Part shown: positions 1 to 8,703 of the stretch, piece by piece
How the letters are laid out: every line of letters begins with the position of its first letter
Numbering within the stretch: position 1 is the stretch's first letter
Source: Chloroflexota bacterium
GTDB lineage: Bacteria > Chloroflexota > Limnocylindria > P2-11E
Assembly: GCA_005889295.1 (NCBI GenBank)
Contig: VBEY01000041.1
Span: 1-41,722, forward strand
Direction of reading: 5' to 3'
Length of the DNA stretch: 41,722 nt
Made by a program: the position numbers and the translations under genes
The notes under the pieces: model-generated
The model's input: the letters and a program-made list of their open reading frames with translations, nothing else
Database searches by the model: none
What the model was told of the DNA's origin: nothing

Positions 1-487
1 CGAGGTCGAAGGTGTTGTCACCGAGGTTGTCGAAAAACCTAAGGCCGTCCCCCAAGAGCACGGGCATGACGCCGACCTGCAGCTCGTCAGCCAGACGAGC
101 TCTGATTGCCTGCTGTGCTGTGTTGGCGCCGCCGATGATTGTGACGTCGCGTGGCCCCGCCGCTTGCTTCGCCCGTTGGATCGCCCGGCCGAGGTCATCG
201 ACGAAGGTGAACGAGAGCTTCGCGTTCTCGCCTTTGGCCGCCTTGGCCGGAGGGCGGTGGGTGACGACAAAGATCGGCACCTGGAATTCGTAGCCGGTGA
301 AGTCACCGTTCGCCATGTCATAGGCGCGCCTGCCCATCACCACGGCCCCGGTATTCGCGATGGCTTCGCGCAACATCTCGGTCTTTTGCAGCGCGGCGAG
401 GTCCGGATAGAGCCGCGCCACGCTGCCCTGGCGGTCGTTCACGAAACCGTCCAATGACATAGTCATGCCGACGACGACCTTCGCCAT
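1..487 (-). CDS. RibD C-terminal / dihydrofolate reductase-like family protein (3' end cut by window edge)
   Basis: Own translation of complement from ATG at 487: MAKVVVGMTMSLDGFVNDRQGSVARLYPDL...GAVVMGRRAYDMANGDFTGYEFQVPIFVVTH...DVTIIGGANTAQQAIRARLADELQVGVMPVLLGDGLRFFDNLG; open to the window edge, so missing from the ORF track. Confidence 0.85.
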   Translation of the reverse strand, partial: MAKVVVGMTMSLDGFVNDRQGSVARLYPDLAALQKTEMLREAIANTGAVVMGRRAYDMANGDFTGYEFQVPIFVVTHRPPAKAAKGENAKLSFTFVDDLGRAIQRAKQAAGPRDVTIIGGANTAQQAIRARLADELQVGVMPVLLGDGLRFFDNLGDNTFDL

Positions 488-1839
488 CAGCCGACGAACG
501 CGCGCGCGGTCTGCTCGAACAGCTCGGTCGACAGCCGGAGCGACTCCTGGTCGATCCGTTCGTTATTGCCATGAAACATCTTCGCAAAGTCCTTGAACGA
601 GATCCGCTCGCTCATGAGGCCGTAGCCATACGACGTCACGCCTTTGCGGCGGAAGTAGCGCGCATCGGTGGCACCGACAATAAGGAAAGGGATCGTCTTC
701 GCGCCGGGGACGAGCTTCTGGGTCACCTTCGTGAGCGTGTCCCAGAGTGGCGTGCGCGTCGGGGACTCGCTCGCGGGGTTATCGCCCTCGGCAACGATCT
801 CGACGTCCTTCCACAGGGCATCGCCGATGGCCTCGCGCAGCATCTCGCGCACTTTTGGTCCGTCGTCCCCGGCGATCGTGCGAATGTCGATGTCGATTTC
901 GGCGCTGTCGGGGATCACGTTCAGCTTCACTCCGGAGTTCGCCATGTTGGGCGAGAACGTCGTGCGCGTGGCCGAATACAACATCGGCGCGGTGCCCTCG
1001 GGTCCGCGGTCGAGGGCCATGTCGAACGTCGCCGCGGTGGTCAGCGCGATCCGTGCAGCGGCCGGCAGGTCGAGGCCGTCGACGAACTGTCGCCAGACCG
1101 AGTGCAGGCGGAGCGGAGCTTTGTAGGTCCCAAGGCGCGTGATGATCTCGGCGGCCTTGAGGAGTGCGTTGTCCGCCTGGTACGGCATCGAGCCATGACC
1201 GGGAGTGCCGCGGACCCGCAGGCGGGTCCACTGCGAGCCCTTCTCGGCGGCGATGAGCGGGAGCTTTGGCGCGCCGTTCCCGAGCGGGATGCGCATGCCA
1301 CCGAACTCCGTCACGAGGTAGTCGGTCTTCACGTCGTCCCAGGCGTTCTCGGTGAGCCATTTTGCGCCGTAGGTGCCGAGCGCTTCTTCGTCCGCGACCG
1401 CGGAAAAAATGAGCGTTCCCTTCGGTCGGAAACCCGAGTCCAATAGCCGCCGAAACGCGACGGCCATCGACGCGGTCACGTCGAGCATGTCGACGGCGCC
1501 ACGTCCCCAGACCTCGCCGTCGATGAGCTCGGCGGCGAACGGATCGTGCTGCCAACCCGACGGTGTGACCGGCACCACGTCGGTGTGGCCCATGAGGTGG
1601 AGCGACGGAGCTTGGGGGTCGCTCCCCGCGATACGCACGACGAGACTGGCGCGGCCTGGCACCGGTTCGTATCGCTTCATCTCGACGCCAGGCGCGCTCA
1701 GATAGCTCTCGAGCAGATCGACGCTTCGGATCTCGTGGCCCGATTCCGGTGTGCCCTCGTTCACGCAGGAGTTGCGGATGAGCCGCTGGAGAAGGTCGGT
1801 CGTCTCGGCGGTCATCTCGGTCATCGGCATGCTCATCAT
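487..1839 (-). CDS. M20 family metallopeptidase (ArgE/DapE/ACY1-like)
   Basis: HLMGHTDVVPV, VWGRGAVDMLD, SAVADEEALGTYGAKWL, GTPGHGSMP motifs; overlaps the neighbouring start/stop codons. Confidence 0.85.
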   Translation of the reverse strand: MMSMPMTEMTAETTDLLQRLIRNSCVNEGTPESGHEIRSVDLLESYLSAPGVEMKRYEPVPGRASLVVRIAGSDPQAPSLHLMGHTDVVPVTPSGWQHDPFAAELIDGEVWGRGAVDMLDVTASMAVAFRRLLDSGFRPKGTLIFSAVADEEALGTYGAKWLTENAWDDVKTDYLVTEFGGMRIPLGNGAPKLPLIAAEKGSQWTRLRVRGTPGHGSMPYQADNALLKAAEIITRLGTYKAPLRLHSVWRQFVDGLDLPAAARIALTTAATFDMALDRGPEGTAPMLYSATRTTFSPNMANSGVKLNVIPDSAEIDIDIRTIAGDDGPKVREMLREAIGDALWKDVEIVAEGDNPASESPTRTPLWDTLTKVTQKLVPGAKTIPFLIVGATDARYFRRKGVTSYGYGLMSERISFKDFAKMFHGNNERIDQESLRLSTELFEQTARAFVG

Positions 1840-3365
1840 GCCTCCATCCGGATCTCCTCGAGATCGAGGTCCCGCTCGATGTTCCGGAGGACGTCGTCGT
1901 CGATGGCTCCGCGGTCGCGCATCTCCCTGAGCGCGTCGCGCTGCGCGTCGATCACATCGCTGCGGATCTGACGGTGCTCGACGAGCTCCTGCTCCGCCTC
2001 GTTGCCGGGCGCTTCGTGGAGCTGCTCCTCATGCTCGGCCCGGTGCCGGTAGCTCGTGCGGAGCTGATCGATGAGCGGTCGATGGGTCGGCCATTTCTTC
2101 TCGAGCTCGTCGATCCGGTGGAGTGCCTGCTCGATGAGGTCCCGCCGCGCGTGCGACTCCTCGTGGTCCTCGTCGTCGTCGCTCCCGAGACCGAGCGCCC
2201 GGATCACGAGCGGCAGCGTCAGGCCCTGGCCGACGAGAGTCACGAGGATCACGGTGAAGGTGATGACGATGATCGCCTCGCGTGCCGGCAGCGCGTTTCC
2301 GGGCAGAGAGACCGGAAGCGCGAGCGCTGCCGCGAGGGAGACCACGCCCCGCATGCCAGCCCACGAAAGGACGAGCGACTCTCGGAGTCGGGTGCGGCGC
2401 TGATCGTCCGACAGAAGCTCGCGAACACTCATCCCGATCACCCAGAGGGCGCGGACGGCGATGAGCGCGATGCTCACGAGGATGCCGACCGCGGCGAGCT
2501 GGAAGAGTGTCCCGCGATCCATCTGTCTGGAAATCGTCGAGATCTGGAACCCGATGGAGAGAAACACGACGCCGTTCAGAAGGAAGACCAGGCTCTCCCA
2601 GACCGCGCGGCCGGCGAGGCGCGCTTCGGAGCCCATGATCTGCGACGACCGCCTGCCGATGAAGAGTCCCGCGGTCACCGCGGCCAGGACGCCGGAGACA
2701 CCGAGCGCTTCCGCCGGGAGGTACGCCGCGTAGGGCGTGAGCAGCGAGATGGTGATCTCGACGGGCGTATCGGTGATGCGAGTACGTATCCACACCGCGA
2801 TCCAGCCCACGACGAGTCCGATGAGGATGCCGCCGAGCGCCACAAATACGAAGCTCGTGAGCGACCCGACCACGGAAACGGCCGCGGCCGCCGCAGCCGC
2901 GCCGATCGCCGCCCGGTAGATCGTGAGCGCGGTCGCGTCATTGAGGAGGCTCTCGCCCTCGAGGATGCTGATGATCCGGCGCGGGACCGCGAGCCTTTGC
3001 GCTATCGCGGTCGCCGCCACCGCGTCGGGAGGAGAGACGATGGCCCCGAGCGCGACGGCGAGTGGCCACGTCATGCCGGCCACGAGCGTCATCGCGGCTG
3101 CCGCGACCACGCCCACGCTCGCGGCAACGAGACCGACGGCGAGCAGGCTGATGTTCTTGAGATTCGCGCGGAAGTCGCGGATCGGAGTGAGGAACGCGCT
3201 CACATAGAGGATCGGCGGCAGGACGATGAGGAAGACGATCTCCGGGTCGAGCTCGAATGGGGGGATTCCCGGAATGAGTCCGACGACGAGCCCGCCGAGC
3301 AGAAGGAGCACTGGATAGGGCACGCGGATCCGGCGCGAAACGGTCACGAGCACGGCAACGATCAC
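1836..3365 (-). CDS. Na+/H+ antiporter, CPA1 family
   Basis: Multi-TM; GAIVSPPDAVAATAIAQRLAVPRRIISILEGESLLNDATAL and SWAGMRGVVSLAAALALP typical of NhaP/CPA1; acidic C-terminal tail; 4-nt overlap with the downstream gene. Confidence 0.9.
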   Translation of the reverse strand: MIVAVLVTVSRRIRVPYPVLLLLGGLVVGLIPGIPPFELDPEIVFLIVLPPILYVSAFLTPIRDFRANLKNISLLAVGLVAASVGVVAAAAMTLVAGMTWPLAVALGAIVSPPDAVAATAIAQRLAVPRRIISILEGESLLNDATALTIYRAAIGAAAAAAAVSVVGSLTSFVFVALGGILIGLVVGWIAVWIRTRITDTPVEITISLLTPYAAYLPAEALGVSGVLAAVTAGLFIGRRSSQIMGSEARLAGRAVWESLVFLLNGVVFLSIGFQISTISRQMDRGTLFQLAAVGILVSIALIAVRALWVIGMSVRELLSDDQRRTRLRESLVLSWAGMRGVVSLAAALALPVSLPGNALPAREAIIVITFTVILVTLVGQGLTLPLVIRALGLGSDDDEDHEESHARRDLIEQALHRIDELEKKWPTHRPLIDQLRTSYRHRAEHEEQLHEAPGNEAEQELVEHRQIRSDVIDAQRDALREMRDRGAIDDDVLRNIERDLDLEEIRMEA

Positions 3366-3394
3366 GAGGAGCGCGAGGAGGAGCTCAGCCGCTT

Positions 3395-4792
3395 TCAGTC
3401 CTGCACGCCGCCTTTCGTCATGGGTAGCGGATCAAGGACGCGCCGGAGATCCTTCTCGGGCATGACCTTCTCCGCGAGCGCGATGTCGATGAGCGGGCGG
3501 CGCTCGGCGAGCGCCCTCTTCACGAGCGCCGCAGCCTTCGCGTAGCCGATATGAGGCGAGAGCGCGGTCACGACCAGAGACGGGCTCGCATCCATGAGCT
3601 CCTTCGCGCGGCCCTCATCGACCTCGAGTCCGGCGATCGCCTTCTCCCTTAGCACTCGCACCGCATTGGCGAGGATCGTCGCCGAGAAGCAGTTCGCGAA
3701 GTTGATGCCCGGCATCATCACGTTGAGCTCGAGCTGCCCCGCCTGTGCGCCCCAGGCCACGGCTGTGTCGTTGCCGATCACTTGGAAGCACACCTGGTTG
3801 ACCATCTCCGGGATCGCGGGGTTCACCTTGCCGGGCATGATCGACGAACCCGGCTGCACCGCCGGGATCCGTACCTCCCCGAACCCCGTGCGCGGCCCCG
3901 ACACGAGCAGGCGGAGGTCGTTGCAGATGCTCGACACCTCGATCGCCGCGGTGCGCATCCCGCTCGAGATGCGGACGAACGGGGCCATCGACTGCATCGT
4001 GGCGAAGAGATTCTTCGCGGGCTTGATCGGCTCGCCGTACCACTCCGCGAGATACGCGCAGACACGCTCGCGGAACTGGGGGTCGGCGTTCAGTCCGGTT
4101 CCCGCGGCCGTGCCACCGATCCCGAGCTCGCAGAGCTCCGCCCGTCCCGCACGAAGGCGCGCCGCCGCACCGCGGACGCGCTCGGCCCAGCCTGAGAACT
4201 CCTGACCGAACGTGATCGGTACGGCGTCCTGCAGATGGGTGCGGCCAGGCTTCACGCAGTCGGCGTAGCGCGTCGCCTTTTCACCGATCGCGTCAGCGAG
4301 GGTGTCAAGCTCCGCGCAGAGCGTTTTTGTCAGCTCGAGGGCGGCAAGACGCATGGCCGTCGGCGTCGTGTCGTTTGTCGACTGCGCCATGTTGACGTGG
4401 TCGTTGGGATTCACATGCTCGTATGTGCCGAGGCCGCCGCCGAGGATCTGGTTCGCGCGGTTGGCGAGGACCTCATTCACGTTCATGTGAAAGCTCACGC
4501 CAGCGCCGGAATGGAACACATCGACAACGAATTGATCCATGTGCTGTCCGGCCAGAATTTCGTCGCAGGCGGCCACGATCGCCGTCTTCCGGCGCTCGTC
4601 GAGACGCTTGGATTCCGCGTTTGCGAGCGCGGCTGCCCGCTTGACGCGAACGAATCCTCGGATGAAGGCCGGGAAGGCACGATAGCCACTGATGGGATAG
4701 TTCTCGATCGCTCGCTGGGTCTGCGCTCCCCATAGCGCGGTGGCGGGGACCTCGATCTCGCCTAGCGTGTCACGCTCACGACGAGAGGTCAC
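3395..4792 (-). CDS. aspA: aspartate ammonia-lyase / class II fumarase family
   Basis: GSSIMPGKVNPAIPEMVNQVCFQVIGND signature; DQFVVDVFHSGAGVSFHMNVNEVLANRA; VNPNDHVNMAQSTND; GTG start. Confidence 0.75.
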   Translation of the reverse strand: MTSRRERDTLGEIEVPATALWGAQTQRAIENYPISGYRAFPAFIRGFVRVKRAAALANAESKRLDERRKTAIVAACDEILAGQHMDQFVVDVFHSGAGVSFHMNVNEVLANRANQILGGGLGTYEHVNPNDHVNMAQSTNDTTPTAMRLAALELTKTLCAELDTLADAIGEKATRYADCVKPGRTHLQDAVPITFGQEFSGWAERVRGAAARLRAGRAELCELGIGGTAAGTGLNADPQFRERVCAYLAEWYGEPIKPAKNLFATMQSMAPFVRISSGMRTAAIEVSSICNDLRLLVSGPRTGFGEVRIPAVQPGSSIMPGKVNPAIPEMVNQVCFQVIGNDTAVAWGAQAGQLELNVMMPGINFANCFSATILANAVRVLREKAIAGLEVDEGRAKELMDASPSLVVTALSPHIGYAKAAALVKRALAERRPLIDIALAEKVMPEKDLRRVLDPLPMTKGGVQD

Positions 4793-4795
4793 CGC

Positions 4796-4814
4796 GAACG
4801 TACAATAGACGTTC
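4796..4814. promoter_or_regulatory. candidate operator: perfect inverted repeat GAACGT-N7-ACGTTC containing TACAAT, between divergent aspA and korA
   Basis: Direct read: gaacgt acaatag acgttc in the 26-bp divergent intergenic gap; TACAAT lies 12 nt before the korA GTG. Confidence 0.4.
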
Positions 4815-4818
4815 CGAA

Positions 4819-6759
4819 GTGCAGAAGAACCGGCTGACCTGGATGATCGGCGGCCCCCAGGGAAGCGGAATTAACGCATCCGCCGAAGTGTTCGCAAAGG
4901 CCTGCTCCCGCGCCGGTCTACGCGTCTACGCGAACATCGAATACCACTCGAACATCATGGGCAAGCACTCCTTCTATCGCGTGCGCGTGGACGAAGAGGA
5001 CGTGCGCTCATACAAGGACAAGGCCGACATCCTCGTCGCGCTCGACCTCGAAACGCTCGCCGGCGACGGCGACCACCGCCGCTGGGCCACGCACTACGGC
5101 CATTTGTCGGAGATCAACGAAGGCGGCGGCGTCATCTTCGACAGTGAGATCGGCTTTGATCCGGTGTCGGCGAACCGCCCGGATCTGCGCTTCTACTCGG
5201 TCCCCTTCATGGACATCATCAAGAAGGCGCTCGAGGAAGTCGGCAAAGGCGAGCAGGCGCGCCGCTACGAGGTCATGAAGAACACCGTCGGGCTCGGCGC
5301 GTCGCTCGCGCTCTGCGAGTACCCGTTCGATCTCGTCGCCGAGGTCATTCGCTCGCAGTTCAAGGGTAAGCGCGCGGAGGTCGGCGAGCTGAACGTCCGC
5401 GCTGCGAAGCTCGCGTTCGAGCACGTGAAGCAACACGAGAACGTGAAGGAGTTCCCGTACACCCTCAAGCCCGGCCGCGAGCCGAAGGCGCGCCTTCTCG
5501 CGAAGGGCTACGAGATCCACGCGATCGCGAAGCTCAAGGCCGGCTGCTCGTTCCAGACTTACTACCCCATCTCACCAGCGACCGACGAGTCCGTCTACCT
5601 GGAGCGCCAGCAACGTGATTACAAACTGCTCGTCGTCCAGTGCGAGGACGAGATCAGCTCGATCAACATGGCGGTCGGCGCGGCGCACATGGGTGTTCGC
5701 GCGGCGACGGCGACGAGCGGTCCCGGCTTCGCCCTCATGGTCGAAGGCATCGGTTTCGCGTCGATCACCGAATGCCCCGGCCCCGTGCTCGTCATGTACC
5801 AGCGCGGTGGCCCGTCGACAGGCATGCCGACGCGGCAAGAGCAGGGCGACCTGCAGTTCGCGTTGCATCCGGCGCAGGGTGATTTCCCGCACCTCGTGAT
5901 CGCCCCCGGCGACCTGCGCGAGGCCTACCAGGACACCTTCTCCGCGTTCAACTGGGCGGAGCGCTACCAGATGCCGATCATCGTCCTCTCCGACAAGAAA
6001 CTCGCTTCGGTGTACACGACGATCGACAAGCTTGAGCTCCGCTGGGACGAGATCGATCGCGGCGAGATGTTCACCGGGAGCGAGTGGACTGCGGTCGACG
6101 CGAAGGGCGCGAACGACGCGGGAACACAGGCCGGCCACAGCGGCAACGGCAACGGGAAGATGGACCTCGCGAGCGTAAAGGAGTACCTCCGCTACGCGTT
6201 CGCGAAGGATGGCATCTCGCCGCGGTCTCGTCCGGGCACCAAGGGTGGTCGGCACTGGATCACAAGCGACGAGCACGACCCCGACGGCCACATCACCGAG
6301 GGCGTGGAGATGCGGGTCGCGATGATGGAAAAGCGCATGGGCAAGCTCAAACTCGCCCAGAACGCGATCCCGGAGGAGCAGCAATTCTTCCTGCATGGTC
6401 CCAAGGACGCTGACCTCACCGTGCTCGCATGGGGCTCGACGAAGGGCACGATCCTCGACGCGCTCAAGGTGCTCGAGGCGCAAGGCAAGAAGATCAACTT
6501 CCTTCAGTGCCGTCTCATGAAACCGTTCCCGGCGAAGGGCGTCGGCGACATCCTGCGTCGCGCGAAGCGGATCGTTTCGATGGAGGAGAACTACTCCGGC
6601 CAGCTTGCGCAGCTGGTGCAGGAGCAGACCGGCGTGATGATCGAACAGCGCATCAACAAGTTCGACGGTCGCCCGTTCAGCGAGGATGAGGTCGTGAATG
6701 CCCTCGCGAAGGTGTATGACGGAGCAAAGGCCGAGCCGGTGGTGACTCATGTCCATTAA
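4819..6759 (+). CDS. korA: 2-oxoacid:acceptor (ferredoxin) oxidoreductase, fused gamma-alpha subunit
   Basis: GGPQGSGINASAEVFAKA (gamma domain) and YYPISPATDESVYLER...EDEISSINMAVGAAHMGVRAATATSGPGFALMVEGIGFA...GGPSTGMPTRQEQGDL (alpha domain); GTG start. Confidence 0.9.
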   Translation: MQKNRLTWMIGGPQGSGINASAEVFAKACSRAGLRVYANIEYHSNIMGKHSFYRVRVDEEDVRSYKDKADILVALDLETLAGDGDHRRWATHYGHLSEINEGGGVIFDSEIGFDPVSANRPDLRFYSVPFMDIIKKALEEVGKGEQARRYEVMKNTVGLGASLALCEYPFDLVAEVIRSQFKGKRAEVGELNVRAAKLAFEHVKQHENVKEFPYTLKPGREPKARLLAKGYEIHAIAKLKAGCSFQTYYPISPATDESVYLERQQRDYKLLVVQCEDEISSINMAVGAAHMGVRAATATSGPGFALMVEGIGFASITECPGPVLVMYQRGGPSTGMPTRQEQGDLQFALHPAQGDFPHLVIAPGDLREAYQDTFSAFNWAERYQMPIIVLSDKKLASVYTTIDKLELRWDEIDRGEMFTGSEWTAVDAKGANDAGTQAGHSGNGNGKMDLASVKEYLRYAFAKDGISPRSRPGTKGGRHWITSDEHDPDGHITEGVEMRVAMMEKRMGKLKLAQNAIPEEQQFFLHGPKDADLTVLAWGSTKGTILDALKVLEAQGKKINFLQCRLMKPFPAKGVGDILRRAKRIVSMEENYSGQLAQLVQEQTGVMIEQRINKFDGRPFSEDEVVNALAKVYDGAKAEPVVTHVH

Positions 6760-6829
6760 CGCGCCGGCGAAGGCACTCACGCTCAAGGACTACAAGAGCG
6801 ATCTCCACAACGACTGGTGTCCGGGGTGT
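6734..6829 (+). repeat. direct repeat copy 1 (korA 3' end plus korB codons 1-27); first 77 bp (6734-6810) identical to 7738-7814
   Basis: Base-by-base comparison at offset 1004: identical 6734-6810, then mismatches at 6811, 6823, 6826, 6829. Confidence 0.97.
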
Positions 6830-7737
6830 TTGGCGCCGGACACCCGAATCATGACGCGCGCCGGAAGCAAGCCGGTCGAACAGATCGAGGTCGGAGATCG
6901 GGTTCTTGCCCACGACGGTCGGTATCACCGCGTTACCGAGCTGATGTCACATCAGCATGACGCCCCGATGCACCGTCTTCGAGTGCACGGACTCGGAACG
7001 ATCGTTCTGACACCGGATCATCCCGTCTACGCAGTACGTCGGCAGCGTCATCGAAAGACCAACACTGATTTCACCGCGGAATGGCTTCCCGCCGAATCTG
7101 TGAGTAGGGGCGACTACGTCGGTTTTCCTGTACCGACCGAAGCCTCGGATCAGCCGTCGGTCTCCCTGTGGTACGCACGCAAGTTCAAGGACACGCGAAG
7201 CAAGCCGCTCCCAGACTCGGTCGCGCTCGATGATCGGTTCCTTCGCCTAGCCGGTTACTACATCTCCGAAGGACACGCACATCACCGCGAAATCGGCTTT
7301 ACCTTCAGTAACCTCGAGAAGGACCTGGTCCAAGACACCGTCAGATTGGTGGGTGACCTCTTCGAGCTCACGGCGACCATCCGGGATCGAACTGAGCACA
7401 ACAACACCATCGAAGTGATGGTGTCGTCCAGCTACCTAACCGAGATATTCGAGCGGATGTTTGGTTCGGGAGCTGTCAACAAAAGGGTTCCTGAGCCTCT
7501 GATGCAGTTAGATCCACACCGACAGCAATCTCTCCTTCGGGGGCTCTGGGCAGGCGACGGTTCGTGGGGCCGAAAGAAGGCGACGTATCGGACCATCTCG
7601 CCGGTGCTCGCAAATCAGGTGACGGTCCTATTGCTCCGGCAAGGAGTTTTGCCCAACGTACATCAGCAAGAGGCAAACGGCATCCACAAGAAGTCTTACG
7701 CCATCTCTGTCTCCAACGGCGCGGGCTACAACAAACT
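6827..7737 (+). mobile_element. intein remnant, ~303 codons, Cys1 at 6827-6829, endonuclease-bearing, C-terminal splicing region absent
   Basis: Intein motifs as above; sequence ends where the 77-bp direct repeat resumes. Confidence 0.88.
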
Positions 7738-7833
7738 AGCCGGTGGTGACTCATGTCCATTAACGCGCCGGCGAAGGCACTCACGCTCAAGGACTACAAG
7801 AGCGATCTCCACAATGACTGGTGTCCAGGCTGC
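7738..7833 (+). repeat. direct repeat copy 2 (korA tail plus intact korB start)
   Basis: See copy 1; offset 1004 bp. Confidence 0.97.
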
Positions 7834-8703
7834 GGCGATTTTGGCATCCTCACCGGCATTCAAATGGCACTGCAACAGCTACAGATCGAGCCCGACAAAC
7901 TCGCCGTGTACAGCGGGATCGGCTGCAGCGGGAAGACGCCGCACTACATCAACGGGTACGGGTTCCACACGCTGCACGGCCGAGTGCTCACCGTCGCGAC
8001 GGGCGGTCGCCTCGTGAACACCGACCTCACCGTGCTCGCGCTCGGCGGCGACGGCGACGGCTACGGCATCGGCGCGGGCTACTTTGTCGGCGCGGGCCGC
8101 CGCAACGCCGACTTCGCGTACATCGTCCACAACAACAACGTCTACGGACTGACGAAGGGCCAAGCGTCACCGACCCTGTCGAAGGGGAAGAAGACGAAGT
8201 CGATGCCCGAGCAGGCGATCCAGGACGGCATAAACCCCGTCGCCATGGCAGTCGCCTCGGGCTACACGTTCATCGCGCGCGGCTACGCCCTCGAGCCGAA
8301 GTACCTCGCGTCGATCATCGTGAAAGCCATCCAACACAAAGGATCGGCGCTCGTCGACGTGCTACAGACGTGCCCCACTTACAACGACCTCTACACGAAA
8401 GAGTGGTACGACGGCGCGGATCTCCCCGAGAAGCGCTCGCGCCTCTACAAGCTCGAGGAGAAGGGCTACGACGGCAAGGTGCAGGACCCCACCGACGCGC
8501 AGGAGATCGTCGCGAAAAAGGCGGCGGCCGTCGCGCGGAGCTACGAGACGGACCCGATCCCGATCGGCATCTACTACCAGGTCGAGCTTCCGACATACGA
8601 GGACGCCGTCGCTCAGCGGATCCCGGCGCTGGCCGAGAAGCCGCTCGTCGACCAAGACGTCTTCCAACGCGATGTGACCCCATTGCTCGAGGCGATGCGC
8701 TAA
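7753..8703 (+). CDS. korB: 2-oxoacid:acceptor (ferredoxin) oxidoreductase beta subunit, intact intein-free copy
   Basis: NDWCPGCGDFGILTGIQMAL; SGIGCSGKTPHYINGYGFHTLHGR; ALGGDGDGYGIGAGYF...NNNVYGLTKGQASPT (TPP-binding); VLQTCPTYND. Confidence 0.93.
   Translation: MSINAPAKALTLKDYKSDLHNDWCPGCGDFGILTGIQMALQQLQIEPDKLAVYSGIGCSGKTPHYINGYGFHTLHGRVLTVATGGRLVNTDLTVLALGGDGDGYGIGAGYFVGAGRRNADFAYIVHNNNVYGLTKGQASPTLSKGKKTKSMPEQAIQDGINPVAMAVASGYTFIARGYALEPKYLASIIVKAIQHKGSALVDVLQTCPTYNDLYTKEWYDGADLPEKRSRLYKLEEKGYDGKVQDPTDAQEIVAKKAAAVARSYETDPIPIGIYYQVELPTYEDAVAQRIPALAEKPLVDQDVFQRDVTPLLEAMR

Follow-up and report, generated by a model that had tools for sequence, protein, structure and literature searches.

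A truncated intein at the predicted cluster-ligand cysteine of KorB in a Chloroflexota contig: a probable assembly join and the widespread intein family behind it

How should one read a contig in which korB, the gene for the beta subunit of a 2-oxoacid:ferredoxin oxidoreductase, opens normally, runs into an intein in the middle of its iron-sulfur motif and then starts afresh downstream? The window considered here is the whole 41,722-nucleotide stretch of a Chloroflexota contig, and a sequence-only reading of it had proposed that an intein sits inside the [4Fe-4S] ligand motif of KorB, that one cysteine serves both splicing and cluster binding, and that cofactor assembly would depend on splicing. 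The locus is laid out as follows:

4819 to 6759, forward strand: korA, 2-oxoacid:ferredoxin oxidoreductase alpha subunit, fused gamma-alpha (TIGR03710, 593 bits; POR_N, 1.6e-48)
6749 to 6826, forward strand: N-extein, KorB residues 1-26 (...HNDWCPG), copy 1, the same residues as in the KorB at 7753
6827 to 7741, forward strand: truncated intein with 305 residues out of about 367, comprising the N-half of Hint and a LAGLIDADG endonuclease and lacking the C-terminal Hint blocks F/G (profile matches, alignment)
7753 to 8703, forward strand: complete intein-free korB, 316 aa, CPGC motif uninterrupted (TIGR02177, 355 bits; closest solved structure PDB 5b46_B, E 4.6e-93)

The 3' end of korA overlaps the start of korB copy 1, and korA is followed by two korB starts, one at 6749 (26 residues plus the intein) and one at 7753 (the whole gene). 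The open reading frame from 6749 to 8017 begins MSINAPAKALTLKDYKSDLHNDWCPG, which is identical to the first 26 residues of the KorB at 7753, and continues with CLAPDTRIM..., confirming the earlier description of a KorB N-terminus that leads directly into an intein; past the intein remnant, the frame reads out of phase through korB copy 2 to 8017.

The expectation that profile searches would recognize Hint and LAGLIDADG domains was borne out, the homology to both being far beyond chance, with matches of the insert to LAGLIDADG_3 (PF14528) at 4.3e-15, to Hint_2 at 3.2e-8, to the PI-PkoII endonuclease in the PDB at 1.8e-10, and to TIGR01445 (intein_Nterm) at 2.8e-4, the last being under the model's cut-off. 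The motifs named in the sequence-only reading are all present:

6827 to 6907, forward strand: intein block A (Cys1, CLAPDTRIM...VGDRVL; alignment with relatives)
7010 to 7021, forward strand: intein block B TxxH (TPDH), T and H invariant in the KorB intein family (alignment)
7247 to 7273, forward strand: first LAGLIDADG motif, LAGYYISEG, acidic residue kept (Pfam match, alignment)
7535 to 7561, forward strand: second LAGLIDADG motif, LRGLWAGDG, acidic residue kept (Pfam match, alignment)

Cys1 stands at the N-junction as the first residue of CLAPDT at 6827 and is invariant in the alignment, and the insert carries the two acidic motifs of a LAGLIDADG homing endonuclease. Its insertion site is exactly WCPG↓C (the arrow marks the insertion point), and alignment to 5b46_B places the interruption of the CxGC ligand motif before its second Cys, just where it had been predicted. 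The GC3 of the intein is 67.7% versus 87.7% for korB, lower as would be expected of recently acquired DNA.

The far end of the insert is what is missing, since it stops at ...YNKLA (7741), by alignment ~62 residues short of relatives of 365-368 aa. Blocks F/G, the C-terminal Hint strands and the HN↓C junction are absent from the insert when it is aligned with complete relatives, and the window locus has no in-frame C-extein beginning with Cys, Ser or Thr, where the relatives have N↓CGDFG. It had been implied that the insert is followed by its own CGDFG in a continuous KorB, but CGDFG belongs to the second korB. The window copy therefore has blocks A and B but neither blocks F/G nor the C-extein of a complete, splicing-competent intein, and because those parts are missing, the locus as written is, judging from its sequence, unable to splice. 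It is best described as a truncated piece of the KorB intein family, apparently the N-terminal ~83% of a canonical intein, endonuclease included, of the widespread WCPG↓C type.

How widespread this family is became clear from one scan of GTDB genomes together with searches of the window's genus and family, in which complete inteins (155-368 aa, all ending N↓C) were found exactly at KorB WC(P/A)G↓C in 28 distinct contigs: 21 are large inteins (357-368 aa) from Nitrososphaeria and related archaea, two are large inteins from Chloroflexota (L016, L106) and five are Chloroflexota mini-inteins (155-181 aa). With same-site inteins in so many public genomes, the idea of a KorB intein unique to the source genome was rejected. 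The window insert shares the insertion codon and, in the tree, falls inside the Chloroflexota KorB group (fork 88/99), KorB inteins forming one clade versus SufB inteins (100/100). Within the window's family there are three large KorB inteins (G021, G015, and G011 with a broken C-terminus) and five small or partial ones (G002, G018, G019, G020, G026), while in the rest, including most of its genus, korB is empty or gave no match; the distribution is sporadic, and mapping the large inteins onto the host tree of KorB takes six changes. At the G011 locus (L240; G011:C27, about 3514-3600), the KorB intein breaks off close to its C-terminus and is joined to korB in a different frame, through either a deletion or another assembly join. 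In some archaeal inteins of the family the endonuclease motif is degenerate (LVGYYIAKG in L018/L033; also L034), and some end in GN↓C (L019, L020, L021, L023, L031) or SN↓C instead of HN↓C. The source genome also contains a GyrA intein (L137, G000:C15; GNFG↓C...HN↓SIDDDP) and an SMC intein at the P-loop (L002/L006, G000:C204; GSGK↓C...HN↓SNVADAVRW).

The public KorB inteins, such as L016 (Chloroflexota), L036 (Ca. Nitrosotenuis chungbukensis) and L024 (Nitrososphaera sp.), share host and residue with the window, and L016 is 55% identical to the window intein with the same Hint plus two-motif LAGLIDADG layout; however, they are complete (...N↓CGDFG) within single open reading frames of ~690 aa, whereas in the window the intein is cut short and another korB follows it. 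An AlphaFold2 model of the intact L016 intein (pLDDT 85, pTM 0.85) matches VMA inteins (7qsu, E 1.8e-23), so that L016 is predicted to be VMA-like. PI-PkoII and VMA inteins (PDB 2cw7, 7qsu) resemble the family in the endonuclease by sequence and in the whole fold by structure, although their hosts, DNA polymerase and V-ATPase, are unlike KorB. The sequence-only reading knew of no characterised intein at this site, and a literature search agrees, no paper describing a KorB intein having been found in the main texts of the open-access literature, although public genomes contain many that are uncharacterised. That inteins occur at conserved cysteines, and in Fe-S proteins such as SufB (PMC8891592) and Tes, whose intein has its own NCBIfam model, is already known.

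How, then, did a truncated intein come to stand before a whole korB? An exact direct repeat brackets the insert:

6734 to 6810, forward strand: direct repeat copy 1, 77 bp exact, korA end and korB start
7738 to 7814, forward strand: direct repeat copy 2, 77 bp exact, beginning where the intein stops; probable assembly join

The copies diverge right after the 77 bp, with SNPs at 6811/7815, 6823/7827, 6826/7830 and 6829/7833, the first of which is the allele SNP that breaks the match between the two korB starts. When two alleles enter a de Bruijn graph, their common prefix lasts until the first SNP between them, and exactly k bases of it are carried on the branching edge; 77 is a standard SPAdes k-mer. 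The intein and repeat copy 2 overlap by ~5 bp (AGCCG), because intein homology (the LA conserved in L016, L018, L019, L021 and L026) runs about 4 bases into copy 2. The source assembly is a strain mixture, since among 101 of its contigs (0.93 Mb) contig ends overlap with scattered SNPs (L187/L212, L211/L213, L172/L222). That sample contains no second two-copy repeat of the 77-bp kind, a point in favor of an assembly origin. From the intein homology, the truncation, the second korB, the exact 77-bp repeat and the intact relatives, we infer that the join is probably an assembly chimera of intein-plus and intein-minus korB alleles, because the repeat equals a standard SPAdes k and the genome is a strain mixture. 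Against this, 12 of the 122 run lengths from 20 to 141 (about a tenth) equal some standard k, the exact contig-end overlaps in the 0.93-Mb sample are 142 and 102 bp rather than 77, so that k=77 is without independent support, and there is no N at the join.

The lack of any N would fit a real chromosomal structure, in which DNA bearing the intein came in by homologous recombination on its korA side and, on the other, by an illegitimate event at the korA/korB junction that used AGCCG microhomology. What would be left is a piece of the intein and its endonuclease, cut short, ahead of an intact korB that retains its own start and ribosome-binding region. Such a korB with its own start is indeed present, and in G011 (L240), of the same family, the intein is likewise broken at its C-terminus, with korB joined to it in another frame; but a repeat of exactly 77 bp would have to be a coincidence, an active endonuclease would meet an uncut target in its own chromosome, and the duplicated layout is seen in no relative, and I regard this origin as unlikely. 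There is almost nothing to recommend an intein that is functional in place, with KorB made by cis-splicing, as in the sequence-only reading: the N-terminal blocks and the site are canonical, but for the sequence as given it is refuted by the missing C-terminal blocks and C-extein, and the frame is out of phase through copy 2. It is just as hard to credit that the insert, an N-half standing alone at the locus, works in trans as part of a split intein with its C-half encoded at another locus, since the break falls after the endonuclease domain and not at the usual split, and an intact korB makes such an arrangement unnecessary. Own-genome searches (genome ~92% complete) found neither a KorB C-half, on which ground the split intein was rejected, nor the missing C-terminal part of the intein, and a PF14890 (Intein_splicing) search of the source genome gave matches on two other contigs and none on the window contig.

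If the join is an assembly chimera, the sampled population would hold both intein-plus and intein-free korB alleles, and the intein-plus branch would have ended near 7741 and been joined over the ~5-bp overlap to the intein-free branch, which would supply the rest of korB, the duplicated 77-mer being kept. In the living intein-plus strain, the intein would continue for ~62 residues to HN↓CGDFG, its splicing out by the usual Cys1/Asn/Cys+1 chemistry would restore the cluster-ligand cysteine, and homing would follow from cleavage of intein-free korB by the predicted LAGLIDADG domain at the CPGC codons. Three copy-1 flank SNPs just before the insertion match intein-plus L016, a weak signal expected in ~3% of cases by chance (9/12 x 2/12 x 3/12, codon frequencies in 12 empty relatives), and they may hint at a tract co-converted with the intein. 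The arrangement in the window is itself ordinary or artefactual, and its lesson is one of caution, in that joining two strain alleles can create a striking gene arrangement.

The insertion-site cysteine is of interest in its own right. In Sulfolobus tokodaii OFOR2 (StOFOR2), the Cys12-Cys15 loop is the conserved CXGC motif and ligates the cluster (PMC5020499), and KorB aligns with the homologous StOFOR chains gap-free at CxGC. The +1 residue in intact KorB inteins is the second Cys of CxGC (...LHN↓CGDFG), which by homology is a [4Fe-4S] ligand, and because of this the anatomy of intact members implies that splicing would have to precede, or be coupled to, correct cluster ligation. The double role proposed for this cysteine, as +1 nucleophile and as ligand, thus holds for the intact relatives and not for the window locus, which is without an in-frame C-extein. 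That cofactor assembly here depends on splicing is unsupported, there being no C-terminal splicing block, and KorB maturation at the window need not depend on splicing because an intein-free korB lies directly downstream.

Do related inteins favor such cysteines? Among the next-best matches of the KorB intein profile, with hosts named from recognised motifs and not by family search, positions at ligand or scaffold cysteines of Fe-S proteins recur: the IscU inteins at GNPV↓CGD (L234, L235) score 300 and 289 bits, NuoI-like CxFCxF↓C inteins 193-255, SufB HYVEG↓C inteins 212-242, radical-SAM CPFCCDF↓C and CNMRCGF↓C inteins 95-172, a NuoI YGR↓CVFC intein 164 and an ABCE1 CIGCGI↓C intein about 100 bits; non-Fe-S hosts also match, namely MAT (230), a DNA methylase-like protein (207), Hel308 (up to 197), endonuclease IV (159) and RNR (153 bits). 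The IscU-type inteins sit directly before the scaffold's conserved Cys and are sisters to the KorB inteins (97/93), although the host differs, and NuoI, ABCE1 and most SufB inteins group together (93/95). The Chloroflexota SufB inteins at HYVEG↓C (L227-L233) are homologous along their whole length, with profile matches of 216-242 bits, and share an Fe-S host and a +1 Cys, but differ in host protein and site and form a separate clade; His at -5 and Cys at +1 are found in the SufB intein of M. tuberculosis too (PMC8891592). Five of these Chloroflexota SufB genes (L227, L228, L229, L230, L233) contain two or more inteins each, in L254 the Fe-S domain of an ABCE1-like protein is interrupted by an intein (CIGCGI↓C...HN↓CVKKCP), and L260 has one in a PorB-like subunit at another position (YDNEAYMN↓TG).

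On the tree, the Fe-S host label is clustered, with 5 changes versus 10.5 in shuffles (0/500), near-copies inflating this clustering, and in 30 loci taken from the best PF14890 matches within the same phylum of archaea, a count by eye gave many RNR, MCM and SNF2-type hosts and few clear Fe-S-ligand sites (two radical-SAM). Insertion before Fe-S ligand cysteines is a suggestive pattern and not a tested enrichment. A more ambitious and rather doubtful proposal would be that one lineage of related inteins has colonized the Fe-S proteins of Nitrososphaeria, other archaea and Chloroflexota, each time entering just in front of a cysteine that serves as cluster ligand or belongs to a scaffold (KorB, IscU, NuoI, ABCE1, radical SAM, SufB), making cluster assembly splicing-dependent and possibly responsive to oxygen, metal or redox stress; while such insertions are observed, the stress regulation is putative.

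Beyond the window, interest lies in the intact relatives, in which one cysteine of a central-carbon enzyme would be both splicing nucleophile and [4Fe-4S] ligand. These intact KorB inteins are found in bacteria and, among the many archaea that have them, in a named Nitrosotenuis strain; they offer a direct test of whether Fe-S loading or oxidation gates splicing.
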